From the NCBI RefSeq assembly GCF_913777625.1, contig NZ_CAJYTI010000003.1, positions 62,001 through 126,000 of the forward strand: a DNA stretch of 64,000 nt, written 5' to 3'. The translations under genes were made by a program, and so were the position numbers. Of this stretch, positions 26,761 to 34,240 are shown in pieces (position 1 is the stretch's first letter; each line of letters begins with the position of its first letter). The stretch is from an uncultured Sphingomonas sp. (GTDB lineage Bacteria > Pseudomonadota > Alphaproteobacteria > Sphingomonadales > Sphingomonadaceae). The notes beneath the pieces are model-generated. The model saw only the letters and a program-made list of their open reading frames with translations. It was not told the origin of the DNA and ran no database searches.

Positions 26761-26785
26761 CAGCCTGCCGGAACATTGCATAAAC

Positions 26786-26800
26786 GTTCCCAGTCTGTTC
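26786..26800. promoter_or_regulatory. SOS box (LexA operator)
   Basis: The sequence GTTC-CCAGTCT-GTTC matches the alphaproteobacterial LexA site GTTC-N7-GTTC exactly and lies 17 bases before the lexA ATG, consistent with autorepression. Confidence 0.88.
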
Positions 26801-26817
26801 TGGACCCGGAGGATTGG

Positions 26818-27492
26818 ATGCTCACGCGCAAGCAGCACGAGCTGATCTGCTTCATTGCCGACCGCCTCGCCGAGACCGGCGTGTCGCCCTCGTTCGAGGA
26901 GATGAAGGAGGCGCTGGACCTGAAATCCAAGTCGGGCGTGCACCGGCTGATCAGCGCGCTGGAGGAACGTGAGTTCATCCGTCGGCTGCCCAACCGCGCG
27001 CGCGCGCTGGAGGTGCTGCGCATGCCCGAACGCGGCGAGCGCAAGCCCATTGCCAAGGCCGCCAAGGCCACCGCGCCCGCAACGGCCGCGGTACCGCCGA
27101 CGCCCGCCAACGACGTGGTGGAGATCCCGCTGCATGGCCGCATCGCCGCCGGTACGCCGATCGAGGCGCTGGAAGGCTCGACCATGCTCCCGGTGCCGGC
27201 CGCGCTGCTGGGTGCGGGCGAGCATTACGCGCTCGAAGTCGCCGGCGACTCGATGATCGAAGCCGGTATTCTCGACGGCGACTATGCGCTGATCCGCCGC
27301 ACGGAGACCGCGCGCGACGGCGAAATCATCGTCGCGCTGATCGACGAGGCCGAGGCGACGCTCAAATATTTCCGGAAGGAGGGCGCGATGGTGCGGCTCG
27401 ATCCTGCGAACCGGGATTATTCGCCCCAGCGCTATCGCCCCGATCAGGTGCGGGTGCAGGGGCGTCTGGCAGGGCTGCTGCGTCGCTACTGA
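26818..27492 (+). CDS. lexA: LexA SOS repressor
   Basis: This 224-residue repressor has an N-terminal winged helix (residues 1-65), a long Ala/Pro-rich linker (about 75-97) and a C-terminal S24 latent protease. The self-cleavage site is Ala111-Gly112 in GRIAAGT; the catalytic dyad is Ser145 in GDSMIEAG and Lys183 in TLKYF. RecA filaments trigger self-cleavage and derepress DNA repair genes. The ATG at 26818 is preceded by GGAGG and by a perfect SOS box. Its 3' end overlaps the convergent downstream gene by 7 bases. Confidence 0.97.
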
Positions 27493-28436
27493 TCGGCGTT
27501 CTTGCCCCGGGGCCGGTATCGGCCTCGGGTTGCGCGAGGATCGTCCGGGCGATCCGCCCCCCGGTGCATGGAGGCGAGCTGATTGGCGCTGCCGCTATAC
27601 AGACCTTTCAGATAGCCACGGTCGAAGCCGGTCAGTTCCTGCGGTGGGGCGGCGATGTTCGGGTCGAACAGCAAGAGGATCGTATCGGACGTGGCGGTAG
27701 CGCCGTCTTCCGGCCCGCGCAGGGGGTTGGCGTCGCCTAGTGCCCGCATGGCGACATAGTCTGCGATCTGCACCGGAGTCTTGCCGATGATGGCGGTGCG
27801 CTCGATCAATATCACGGACGCGAGGATATCACGCCGGATCGCTGCAAACAGGTGCGACGCAGTGGTAACTGCCAGCGTAGCGCTGAAGCTGCCCGAGGCG
27901 ACGTTCGCGCCGATCCGATCCCCGTCGCGGCTGCGGGTCTCGATGATGCGCCAGGCGCGGACCGGGCCACCCTGCTGGCCGATCGCATCGATCTCTTCCC
28001 GCGTTCGATACCCGAAGCGCAAGGGGTCGCGCTGACGAAGGCGCGAAAAAGCGGCATCGACATCTTCGACGAACACCAGCGTGACGTTCGGACGACAACC
28101 GGGGCCCGCGAGCGTGATCCCGGCTTGTGCCGCATCCTCCACTAGCCTGCCGCCGAGCTGTTCTAGGGTTCCACGGTCGAGCCCTGCCGCCGCGAAGCAG
28201 ATGGGGTCGCCGAAGCGCGGCAAGGGCTCGTCCGATGCGGTGCGCGGGGTGACCGCGCGTTGCAGGGCTTCGACGCGCATGCGAACGGGGGCGGCTCGGC
28301 CCGTGACGATGAGCGGATCGAGCGGGGTCGCTCCAGCGGGCGCGACCGCTGCGGGTGGCGACAGTTCCTTCTGTGCCTGGGCCGCGCCTGGCGCCGCCAG
28401 CAGCGCCGACATGCCCCACCATGCCCTTATCCGCAA
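27486..28436 (-). CDS. Secreted protein of unknown function, paralogue of the gene at 28786
   Basis: I do not recognise this 316-residue protein. It begins with a signal peptide ending AQAQ, then a Pro/Ala-rich stretch and the motif [11 protein letters not shown], followed by [12 protein letters not shown] and a C-terminal [12 protein letters not shown]. The TTG at 28436 is preferred because AAGGGG stands upstream and it gives a full signal peptide; the next ATG is eight codons later. It is clearly related along its whole length to the divergent gene at 28786: shared blocks include [11 protein letters not shown] and QAGI-LAG-GCRPNV. The product is probably periplasmic. Confidence 0.8.
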
Positions 28437-28785: not shown

Positions 28786-29694
28786 ATGCGGGGATCCTGG
28801 TTGGCGGTACTTATCGGCCTGGGGCTGCCAGGACTTGCGCTGGCGCAGCAGGCCGAACCGCCCGCCAGCGCACCATCGCTTGTCAAGGAACATCCCGCGG
28901 TGCCCGGCGACCCGATCATCGTCACCGGCCGCCCGCTGCCGCCCAAGGACGAGATCCGCTCGCTGGCCCGCGCCATCACGCCTCCGACGATGGCGAATGA
29001 GCCGTTGCCGCGCTTTTTCGAGTCGGTGTGCTTCGGAAGCAAGGGTCTCGACCGCCAGACGCTTGTCGATATCGGCGATCGGCTGGCAGCCGATGCCGAC
29101 CAGGCCGGTATCAAGCTTGCGGGCGACGGTTGCAGGCCAAACGTCGTGATTTTGTTCGTGGACGGTATCGAGGGCGAGATCGACACGCTGGTAAAGCGCC
29201 GATGGTGGGTATTCGGCTATCGCTCGCCTTCCGAGATACGCGAGATCGTCGACGAACGCGGGCCTGTGCGCGCCTGGAGCAACATCGAGACGCGAAGCAG
29301 CGACGGAAATCGCATCGATTCCAACGGCGTTCTAAGGGTCTCCGTCGCCTCCCGCCTCGTTTCGTCGGTTCGCCAGGACGCGCTGGCATCTATCGTGCTG
29401 GTCGAGCGCAAGGCGCTGATCGGCAAGACTCCGGTGCAGATTGCGGACTATATTGCCATGCGCGCGCTGGCCGGCGCGCGGCCCCGACGGACCAGCGGCA
29501 GAGAAACGATCCTCACCCTCTTCGACGGCGCGACACGAAACGCGCCGCCGGAATTGACCGCGTTCGACCGTGGCTATCTGCACGGCCTGTACGCTGGGGA
29601 GGCAAATGCCCTTGCGTCGACCACGCAGGGCAGGATCGTTCGCGATATCCTGAAAGCCAAGGATCGGGAGATGACGACCGCAACGGGCAAATGA
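28786..29694 (+). CDS. Secreted protein of unknown function, paralogue of the gene at 27486
   Basis: This 302-residue protein has a signal peptide ending ALAQ and the same architecture as its divergent neighbour: [70 protein letters not shown] and FDRGYLHGLYAG. Two conserved Cys (in VCFGS and GCRPN) could form a disulphide, as both are also present in the paralogue. No enzyme motif is visible. The function is unknown. Confidence 0.82.
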   Translation: MRGSWLAVLIGLGLPGLALAQQAEPPASAPSLVKEHPAVPGDPIIVTGRPLPPKDEIRSLARAITPPTMANEPLPRFFESVCFGSKGLDRQTLVDIGDRLAADADQAGIKLAGDGCRPNVVILFVDGIEGEIDTLVKRRWWVFGYRSPSEIREIVDERGPVRAWSNIETRSSDGNRIDSNGVLRVSVASRLVSSVRQDALASIVLVERKALIGKTPVQIADYIAMRALAGARPRRTSGRETILTLFDGATRNAPPELTAFDRGYLHGLYAGEANALASTTQGRIVRDILKAKDREMTTATGK

Positions 29695-29764: not shown

Positions 29765-30625
29765 TTAGCGCCCTTGCTGTCGCCGTAGTTCGACGTCGAA
29801 CGCCTTCTGCGCCGCATCCAGCCGGCGTGCCAGTTCCGCCGGGTCCACGAATGCCTGCGTGTCACCACCAAGCTGTTTGGCGCGCTTGGCGGGGAGATCG
29901 AACTGCTCTGCATGGAAGCTCAGGAACACATCCGCCTGGGTCGCGCGCAGCTTGGCGAAGGTGGCACGAAAATCGGCGGCCGCAGCGTCATAGCCATGGC
30001 CCGGGGTCAATGGCTGGTCGGCCACCGTCAGGCTGCAGGCGAACAAAACGGTGAGGCTGTCGCCCCCCGAGGGGACCTGCATCGTGAAGCTGGTGCAGCC
30101 CTTGGTGTGTCCCGGCGTGAGGTGCGCGACCAGCGTATTGGTGCCGAGCCGGATTTCCTCGCCGTCCTTCAACTGCGCGTCGACCTTCACCGGCGGTGCC
30201 GAGATGGAAATATCGGGCCGATAGTCCGCGCGGCCCGCCTCCAGCGCGGCGGTATCGCCCGCGCTCGCCAGCAGCCGCGCGCCGGTGCGGCGCTTGAGTT
30301 CGGCAAGGCCGCCGTCATGGTCCCAGTGCGCGTGGTTGATCAGCAGGATCTTCACGTCGGTCAGCTTGAAGCCCAGCTTCTCGATATTGGCGGCAATCAG
30401 CGACGCGCTTTCGGGCATGCCGCCGTCGATCAGGATATGCCCTTGCGGGCTCGTGATCAGATAGGCGGAAATGCCCGCGGTGCCGACATAATGGACATTG
30501 CCGAGGATGCGGAACGGCGCCATGGGCTGGTTCCACTCGGTGCGGACCTTGGCCCAGTCGGTGCCTTGCGCCATCCCCGGCGAAGCCAGGCCAAGTGCCG
30601 AGGTTGCAAGCAGAATCCGGATCAT
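29765..30625 (-). CDS. Subclass B3-like metallo-beta-lactamase fold hydrolase
   Basis: This 286-residue secreted protein has a signal peptide (ending near GMAQG) and the complete zinc ligand set of B3 enzymes: HAHWDH with His98, His100, Asp102 and His103, His173 in TPGHTKGCTS, and His238 in LSFHAEQFD. B3 enzymes hydrolyse beta-lactams in the periplasm; relatives with other substrates exist, so the antibiotic role is a prediction. Its ATG overlaps the comEC stop (ATGA), so it is translated from the same message. GGGAG lies before the ATG. Confidence 0.87.
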   Translation of the reverse strand: MIRILLATSALGLASPGMAQGTDWAKVRTEWNQPMAPFRILGNVHYVGTAGISAYLITSPQGHILIDGGMPESASLIAANIEKLGFKLTDVKILLINHAHWDHDGGLAELKRRTGARLLASAGDTAALEAGRADYRPDISISAPPVKVDAQLKDGEEIRLGTNTLVAHLTPGHTKGCTSFTMQVPSGGDSLTVLFACSLTVADQPLTPGHGYDAAAADFRATFAKLRATQADVFLSFHAEQFDLPAKRAKQLGGDTQAFVDPAELARRLDAAQKAFDVELRRQQGR

Positions 30626-32736
30626 CGTCGATCTCCCTTCGCCGCCGTGGATGGCGGCTGGACGGTGGGCGGGTCAAGCCATGGATGGCGCCCCGCCCCG
30701 CGCACCGTGCGGACAGTGCCGCGCGCAAAGGTGATTGCGACGCCGCCGGTCTGGGCCAGCGCCGTCCGATCGAGCCGCAGCCAACGGGGCCGGCAGCCGC
30801 GCGGCAAGCGGCGATCGCTCACCACCACGTCGCTGGCGGCGCAGACCGCGACCAGGTCCTGCCACACGACGGGATAGGCGCTGCGGGTGGCAGCCACTCG
30901 CCAGCGGCGGCCGTGCCAGTCGATCTCCGCCAGGCAAAGGTCCGCGCTGCACCGCGCATCCGGCCGGTCGTCGAGCGCTGCGAGCGCATCGGGCTCCACC
31001 CCGCCATTCTCGCCCAGCACCTGCCGGGTGAAATCGCCGGCACGATCGCGCAGCAGCGCGAAGCTGCCGTCGGCCATCCGCAGCGCGACATGGCGGCCGT
31101 CTCCGGTTACCAGCAGGTCGGGGCCGGGCGTGACCAGCGCCCACACCGCTCCCGCGGCCAGCGGTACCAGCCCCGCCATACGGATGCGCGTCCGCCACAG
31201 CCCCAGCCAAAGTCCGCCCAGTACCATCAGCGCGAATGCCCCTGCCGGCATCACCGGTAGCGCGGCGACCGATCCGGGAGCGCTCGCCGCCGCGTGCGCG
31301 ATCCATAGCAGCAGTGCCATCGCCTTGCCGGTCAGCCACCAGAAGGGCGCGCCCGCCCCAACCAGGTCGGCAACCAGCGCCAGCGCCTCCAGGGGCATCA
31401 CCACGAAGGTGGTCAGCGGGATCGCGGCGATATTGGCGACCGCGCCGTACACGCCGCCCTTGTGGAAATGAAACAGCCCGATCGGCATCAGCGCCAGCTC
31501 GACCAGGATGCCGGTGAGCAGCAGCGATCCCGCCTCGCGCGCGATCCGCCGCGCGAGCCCCTCCTCGCGCGCCTCGAACCAGCGGTGCATGCGCGGGCTC
31601 TCGTGCAGCGCGACGATTGCCGCGACGGCGGTGAAGCTCAGCTGGAAGCTGGGGCCCGCCAGCGACTCGGGCCAGAGCAGCAGCACCACCATCGCGCCCG
31701 CCGCGACCAGCCGCAGCGTCAGCGCCTCGCGCCCCAAGCTGAGCGCCACCAGCACCAGCAGCGCGGCGGCACAGGATCGGATCGTCGGCACCTGCCCGCC
31801 GGTGAGCCAGGTATAGCCGATCGCCGCCAGCGCACCCGCACCCGCCGCTACCAATGGGAGCCGCACCCGCAGCGCCAGCCAGGAACTCAGCGCCAGCAGC
31901 CGCAGCACCACCAGCATCGCAGCGCCTGTGACGGCGGTGACGTGGAGGCCGCTGACCGAGAGCAGATGCGCCAGCCCCGCGCGCCGCATCGCCTCGCTGT
32001 CCTCCTCGGCGATCGCGCCCTCGTCGCCGGTCGCCAACGCACTGGCGATGCCGCCGGCGCTGCCGGGCAGCTTAGCCTCGATATGCGCGGAAAGCGCCGC
32101 ACGCAGATCCTGCCCGGCGTTGGGCGGCGGACGGCGCAATGTCACCGGATCCAGCGCCTTGCCGGTCGCGCCGATGCCGTCGAACCAGGCGACTCGGCGG
32201 AAGTCATAGGCGCCCGGCACCGAGGGCCCGGGCGGCGGCAGCAGGCGGGCCCGCAGCGCCACCCGCGCGCCGACGCCGATGTCGGCGGGCGCCGCGCCCA
32301 TGTCGACATTCACCCGCACCCGCGGCGGCAGGTCGGTCCGCGCAACGGGCGCCAGCACCAGGCGCACCAGCCCGCGCGCGGAGAGGCTGTCGACGCGCAG
32401 CACCTCCGCCTCGAACGTCATGATCGCGGGGCGCGCAAGTACCGGCGCGGAACCGCTTTCGGCCCGCCACCAGATCGCGCCGCACCCCGCCGCCAGCAAC
32501 AGGCCGAGCACCAGCAGCGCACGCCCCGATCGGCCGGGCACCACCACGCCTACCGCCGCCACGCCCAGCGCTGCCACGAGGAATCCGATCCACTGCCGTG
32601 CATCATCCAGCACGAACCAGGCGGTGATGCCGGCGCCGAACGCCACCGGCAGCCACAGCGGCAACTGCCCCCGCTCCGCCTCCAGCCAGCGCTCGATCGC
32701 GTGCCTCCCCTTGGGGAATCCCCTCCCCGCCCCCAT
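30622..32736 (-). CDS. comEC: ComEC/Rec2-family competence membrane protein, short form without MBL domain
   Basis: This protein of about 704 residues would form the inner-membrane DNA channel for transformation. It has N-terminal helices, a DUF4131-like OB segment, and the Competence domain with the conserved LAHLLSVSGLHVTAV block and many helices. After the last helix only about 160 residues remain (from DLLVTGDGRHV), without the HxHxDH nuclease-like domain of longer ComEC proteins. The start is uncertain: ATG at 32736 or 32787, neither with a strong ribosome site. It is divergent from gltX and coupled to the B3 hydrolase gene downstream. Confidence 0.9.
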   Translation of the reverse strand: MGAGRGFPKGRHAIERWLEAERGQLPLWLPVAFGAGITAWFVLDDARQWIGFLVAALGVAAVGVVVPGRSGRALLVLGLLLAAGCGAIWWRAESGSAPVLARPAIMTFEAEVLRVDSLSARGLVRLVLAPVARTDLPPRVRVNVDMGAAPADIGVGARVALRARLLPPPGPSVPGAYDFRRVAWFDGIGATGKALDPVTLRRPPPNAGQDLRAALSAHIEAKLPGSAGGIASALATGDEGAIAEEDSEAMRRAGLAHLLSVSGLHVTAVTGAAMLVVLRLLALSSWLALRVRLPLVAAGAGALAAIGYTWLTGGQVPTIRSCAAALLVLVALSLGREALTLRLVAAGAMVVLLLWPESLAGPSFQLSFTAVAAIVALHESPRMHRWFEAREEGLARRIAREAGSLLLTGILVELALMPIGLFHFHKGGVYGAVANIAAIPLTTFVVMPLEALALVADLVGAGAPFWWLTGKAMALLLWIAHAAASAPGSVAALPVMPAGAFALMVLGGLWLGLWRTRIRMAGLVPLAAGAVWALVTPGPDLLVTGDGRHVALRMADGSFALLRDRAGDFTRQVLGENGGVEPDALAALDDRPDARCSADLCLAEIDWHGRRWRVAATRSAYPVVWQDLVAVCAASDVVVSDRRLPRGCRPRWLRLDRTALAQTGGVAITFARGTVRTVRGAGRHPWLDPPTVQPPSTAAKGDRR

Positions 32737-32815
32737 TTGAAGGCCCGGAAACCCCGTGCTAGGGGCCGCGGCGGCTGAACTGGCCATCGAGACAACAGAC
32801 TGGGAGCATGCGCGC

Positions 32816-34240
32816 TTGAGCGCAACACAAGAAACCACCCCCGCCAAGCCCGTCGTCACGCGCTTCGCCCCCTCGCCGACCGGCTTCCTCCATATCGGCG
32901 GGGCGCGCACCGCGCTGTTCAACCTGCTGTTCGCCCGCCACCATGGCGGCAAGTTCCTACTGCGCATCGAGGATACCGATCGCGCGCGCTCGACCCAGCC
33001 GGCGATCGAGGCCATCCTCGACGGCCTGCGCTGGCTCGGGCTCGATTGGGACGGGGACGAGGTGTACCAGTTCGCCCGCGCCGCTCGGCATGCCGAAGTG
33101 GCCAACGAAATGATCGCGCGCGGCGCGGCCTATCGCTGCTACCTGACCCAGGACGAGCTCGCCGCGATGCGTGCCGAGGCGGAAGCCGCCAAGAAGCCGC
33201 TGCGCATCCGCTCGCCCTGGCGCGACCGCACCGATGGCGATCCCGCGATCCCGCACGTCGTCCGCCTCAAGGCACCGACCGAGGGTGCGGTGACGATCCG
33301 CGATCATGTCCAGGGTGAGGTGACCGTGCAGAATGCCGAGATCGACGATCTCGTGCTGCTGCGCTCGGACGGCACGCCCACCTATATGCTCGCCGTGGTG
33401 GTCGACGACAACGACATGGGCGTGACCCATGTGATCCGCGGCGACGACCATCTCAACAACGCCTTCCGCCAGTTGCCGATCTACCGTGCGATGGGCTGGG
33501 ACGAGCCGGAATACGCCCATATCCCGCTGATCCACGGCGCGGACGGTGCCAAGCTCTCCAAGCGCCACGGCGCGCTTGGCGTCGACGCGTATCGCGACGA
33601 ACTGGGCCTGCTGCCCGAGGCGGTATCCAACTATCTCCTCCGCCTCGGCTGGGGGCATGGCGATGACGAGATCATCAGCCGGGAGCAGGCGATCGAATGG
33701 TTCGATCTGGCAGGCGTCGGCAAATCACCAAGCCGGTTCGATCTGAAGAAGCTCGAGAACCTGAACGGTCACTATATCCGTCAGTCGGAAGACGATCGCC
33801 TCGCCGGTCTCGTCGCCGCGCGGCTGCCGTTCGAACCGAGCGACTCGCAAGCCGACCTTCTGCGCCGCAGCATGGCCGCACTGAAGCCGCGCGCCGCGAA
33901 TCTCCTCGAACTTGCGGATGGCGCAGGCTTTCTTTTTCGCACTCGCCCACTCGAAATGGACGAGAGCGCGGCCGCTCTGCTAGAGGGCGATGCACGCACC
34001 CTGCTCGCCCGGTTGCACACCGCGCTTGACGGATTGGCAACGTGGGATACGGAGGCGCTCGAAGCGGCGGTACGCACCGTCGCCGACGACGCGGGCGTGA
34101 AGCTCGGCAACCTGGCGCAGCCGCTGCGTGCGGCGTTAACCGGACGCCGAACTTCCCCGGGTATCTTCGATGTCCTGGCGTTGCTGGGGCGCGAGGAAAG
34201 CCTCGCCCGCATCGCAGATCAGATGCGTACGCCCGCCTGA
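32816..34240 (+). CDS. gltX: Glutamyl-tRNA synthetase
   Basis: This class I synthetase of about 474 residues charges tRNA-Glu. The HIGH-type motif is HIGG (residues 26-29) within [13 protein letters not shown], and the KMSKS-type motif is LSKRHGA. The TTG at 32816 is chosen because it gives the normal N-terminus and GGGAG lies about 10 bases before it; an upstream start at 32756 would overlap comEC's possible start region. It is followed by gltA 27 bases downstream, a gene order common in sphingomonads. Confidence 0.96.

Follow-up and report, generated by a model that had tools for sequence, protein, structure and literature searches.

The window, by which we mean the whole stretch of 64,000 nucleotides that was analysed, comes from an uncultured Sphingomonas close to S. 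pituitosa/azotifigens; Sphingomonas are bacteria of soil and plants. It carries the DNA-uptake gene comEC and, directly behind it on the same strand, a gene for a metallo-beta-lactamase (MBL)-fold hydrolase, in the following setting:

26776-27492, plus strand: lexA, convergent, bounding the variable interval behind comEC
28786-29694, plus strand: a lineage-specific gene for a secreted-looking protein, between lexA and the MBL gene
29765-30625, minus strand: the MBL hydrolase gene, 286 aa, subclass B3 metallo-beta-lactamase-like (family search, ligand pattern) and secreted-looking, with B3 ligands at H98, H100, D102, H103, H173 and H238 (protein numbering)
30622-30625, minus strand: the ATGA overlap between the comEC stop and the MBL start
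30632-30639, minus strand: a Shine-Dalgarno-like motif, AAGGGAGA, inside the 3' end of comEC
30622-32736, minus strand: comEC, 704 aa, ATG at 32736, with DUF4131 and Competence domains and without a lactamase domain (Pfam)
30661-31155, minus strand: the conserved C-terminal region of ComEC (about residues 528-692), without a Pfam family
32756-34240, plus strand: gltX, the divergent neighbour on the 5' side of comEC, start codon uncertain

Pfam assigns to ComEC only the Competence (PF03772, 2.2e-56) and DUF4131 (2.2e-15) families, and neither a lactamase family nor an HxHxDH motif was found in the protein, which bears out the first-pass annotation of a short ComEC without MBL domain. DUF4131-Competence is the main ComEC profile of Alphaproteobacteria, where an MBL-less ComEC is the published norm (PMC6299819). 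The protein is also more than a plain truncation, since a conserved C-terminal stretch of about 150 aa remains. This region is conserved over 34 Sphingomonas sequences, and ComEC ends from other alphaproteobacterial families look related by eye. It contains four invariant cysteines (C596, C601, C632 and C648). We examined it with two AlphaFold models, two Foldseek searches, profile comparisons and a lax Pfam search. MBL-fold entries were among the weak Foldseek matches (best E 0.093), and the soluble part alone matched an MBL profile with an E of 0.09, a match that became stronger only when the membrane helices were included. Pfam at E<=10 returned no lactamase match for the region, and a solved ComEC was absent among the structure matches listed, though the PDB holds ComEC sequences. 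The region could possibly be a decayed MBL fold, an idea that leans on these weak model and profile matches.

The hydrolase passes the NCBIfam equivalog model bla_subclass_B3 (NF033105; score 329.6 bits, cut-off 240) and displays the B3 pattern HAHWDH...PGHT...H, in agreement with the earlier call of an MBL-fold hydrolase overlapping comEC by ATGA. Its nearest named B3 families in NCBIfam are SPG-1, CAU and BJP, and it scores below the cut-offs of the named B3 allele families in those results. Of the sequences with a solved structure, those closest to it belong to the MBL family, BJP-1 (3lvz), FEZ-1 and L1 among them, and several are B3 enzymes; the same search also matched lactonases, weakly. 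The six zinc ligands do not vary in any of 22 hydrolase sequences, and the N-terminus (MIRILLATSALGLASPGMAQ) resembles a signal peptide when judged by eye; of the two features first reported for this protein, the B3 ligands are firm and the signal peptide stands as a resemblance. In pairwise comparisons the MBL gene shows a dN/dS of 0.07-0.20 (comEC: 0.11-0.26), which, together with the invariant ligands, argues that the MBL gene is maintained by purifying selection. The hydrolase is indeed not a simple split domain, and the reading as a split-off piece of ComEC is rejected: it is a full, secreted-looking B3-type protein with relatives of its own. Within the window genome the second-best match to it has 29% identity (E 9.5e-8), and no relative at >=60% identity was found in the plasmid records searched. 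A role in anti-phage defence was also considered and rejected, the one weak Avs1a match being judged an MBL-fold cross-match.

We then asked how widely the linkage is kept, counting hydrolase relatives at E<=1e-20 in a sample of 201 Sphingomonas genomes. ComEC was matched in 198 of the 201 genomes and an MBL relative in 147. All MBL relatives of at least 53% identity (22/22) followed immediately after comEC in the same orientation, and each of the 22 genomes had a single MBL match at E<=1e-20; in one of them (G004) the adjoining comEC match lacks the first 207 residues. The matches at or below 50% identity that were compared by position were unlinked. A comEC-linked MBL gene is present in about 11% of the sampled Sphingomonas and about 89% do without one. 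A named scan added six linked species, including S. canadensis, S. caeni, S. liriopis and S. melonis, for a total of 28. With the most likely start codon chosen by eye, the junction measures -68 to +14 nt in 23 of the 28, mostly -4 or -1, and is looser (about +90 to +870 nt) in five. The linked gene was found in 0 of 99 genomes from other genera of the family; full-length ComEC matches are present in almost every Sphingomonas sampled, as well as in most of the family. The idea that the pairing is confined to one strain is therefore refuted by 28 species with the same order. The linkage spans deep divergence, with ComEC about 60-90% identical. The root of a ComEC tree made by a quick method is unsure, most intended outgroup rows being absent from it. 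Linkage of this age outlasts what pure hitch-hiking needs, and the arrangement may therefore bring some benefit.

By itself, the 4-nt overlap is ordinary, because overlaps occur in ~15% of co-directional gene pairs in most prokaryote groups (PMC6728339). What goes beyond chance is that the pairing is kept over 28 species while MBL identity falls to about 51-53%. A motif similar to AAGGGAGA is present in most close relatives, and motif and overlap would be compatible with termination-reinitiation, a mechanism described for overlapping genes (PMC6728339). A scan for promoters and terminators gave no signal exceeding shuffled background.

The place behind comEC proved to be a variable slot. In the MBL-less genomes fetched, comEC and lexA are mostly still convergent (in L048, lexA was not found within the stretch fetched), and the interval between them ranges from -127 nt to about 2 kb, being negative to 50 nt in some. 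Its contents, named by eye, include a protein with a LuxR-like end (L029, L031), a DMT-like membrane protein/transporter (L034) and, in an MBL-less sister lineage (L032, L035), an RHH/EF-hand-like gene, starting MRAPKKSDTIEVRLPHAVKRAF, that begins at or just past the comEC end. This variation among lineages is our main reason for treating the pairing as positional. It also leaves the suggested tie between ComEC's missing domain and the presence of the neighbour unsupported, as sister lineages carry unrelated genes in the same interval and most of the genus lacks the linked gene altogether. In the window, the interval further holds two paralogs (27486-28385, minus strand, and 28786-29694, plus strand) that are secreted-looking, about 300 aa long and about 50% identical. 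They have no Pfam or NCBIfam family, and one or two copies occur in close relatives, with none detected in others. On the other side of comEC, gltX of three genomes (L009, L011, L012) aligns over about 100-114 codons only, close to the 3' end and with 65-70% identity, looking as if reduced to a remnant.

A wider scan recovered unlinked hydrolase relatives at 53-63% identity (L063, L064, L065, L068, L073, L081, L105). Most of these branch among linked groups in the MBL tree, whose backbone is weakly resolved, and a single clade of linked genes is neither favoured nor rejected (p-AU 0.19). A LysR gene was seen within about 1 kb of the MBL gene in five of the unlinked relatives examined, L063, L081 and L105 plus the more distant L089 and L092; L064, L065, L068, L073 and L079, likewise unlinked, do not show it. 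The copies near other unlinked MBL genes share 64-73% identity with the L081 copy and, in a family search, the LysR proteins of two relatives had PenR as best match, below the NCBIfam allele-level (exception) cut-off. The PenR/AmpR-like LysR gene is absent from all linked loci, and a search of the window genome gave no ortholog, the best match there reaching 43% over half its length.

Altogether, these results suggest, with a probability of roughly 0.7, that the hydrolase is an ordinary B3 beta-lactamase whose gene forms the second cistron of a comEC transcript and which has no role in DNA uptake. The reading is drawn from the NF033105 score, the invariant ligands, the conserved short junctions and the low dN/dS, as well as from the variable slot and the LysR gene found near some unlinked relatives only. 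A chromosomal subclass B3 gene would have settled in the comEC-lexA slot and, its own regulator being absent, would use the promoter and ribosomes of comEC, the hydrolase being produced by translational coupling at the overlapping stop and start. The protein would then be exported, and beta-lactam hydrolysis in the periplasm is its most likely activity. We infer co-transcription with comEC, and likewise the direction of the regulatory change. Should the coupling be borne out in RNA, a B3 beta-lactamase would be controlled by a DNA-uptake gene and not by a beta-lactam sensor. The result accounts for a suggestive gene pair and speaks against a split ComEC nuclease; a functional tie between hydrolase and DNA uptake is not supported.

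It is conceivable, if unlikely, that part of Sphingomonas rewired a B3 beta-lactamase from a PenR/AmpR-type inducible switch to comEC, with protection accompanying the DNA importer. We give a similarly low chance to adaptive co-regulation, in which the linked enzyme provides beta-lactam tolerance during DNA import, for example when DNA is taken from cells lysed by antibiotic producers: the coupling is tight and long-lived in 23 species and the linked form has no PenR/AmpR-like regulator, but unrelated genes fill the same slot in other lineages, about nine-tenths of the sampled genus manages without, and the literature consulted contains no demonstration that these strains are competent. Slightly more doubtful is the idea that the enzyme works in the periplasm not on beta-lactam drugs but on another compound, for instance a lactone or one derived from peptidoglycan. 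Proteins with the MBL fold catalyse many different reactions, lactonases are weakly matched and a substrate cannot be told from sequence alone, yet the B3 equivalog score, the retained ligand set and the PenR/AmpR-like neighbour of near relatives all point to beta-lactams.

We consider it very improbable that the secreted protein replaces the missing domain in trans, as a nuclease degrading the non-transforming strand for the MBL-less ComEC. The nuclease activity of the ComEC MBL domain does matter in B. subtilis, the window ComEC lacks that domain, and the fate of the second strand in organisms with an MBL-less ComEC is described as an open question (PMC8579336); however, full-length ComEC matches do without such a neighbour in most Sphingomonas and in the 99 other-genus genomes, and the hydrolase scores as a B3 lactamase. 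The fate of the MBL nuclease is better sought in the C-terminal region of alphaproteobacterial ComEC. Finally, chance neighbours with no shared expression and an overlap due to annotation are hardly credible, common as short overlaps are among prokaryotes (PMC6728339), given the short junction kept by 23 species and the Shine-Dalgarno-like motif of most close relatives.

The proposed B3 second-cistron gene can be set beside three known systems. ComEC of the B. subtilis and L. pneumophila type shares DUF4131 and Competence with the window protein but carries a C-terminal MBL nuclease domain, whereas the latter has no lactamase domain. Chromosomal beta-lactamase genes under PenR/AmpR control resemble the relatives adjoining a PenR-like LysR gene (L063, L081, L105), and differ from the comEC-linked form in having a regulator as neighbour. 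With subclass B3 metallo-beta-lactamases the hydrolase shares equivalog score, ligand pattern, length and signal-like N-terminus; it differs in scoring below the named-allele cut-offs and in the placement of its gene behind comEC. The gene type is already known and the arrangement is new.
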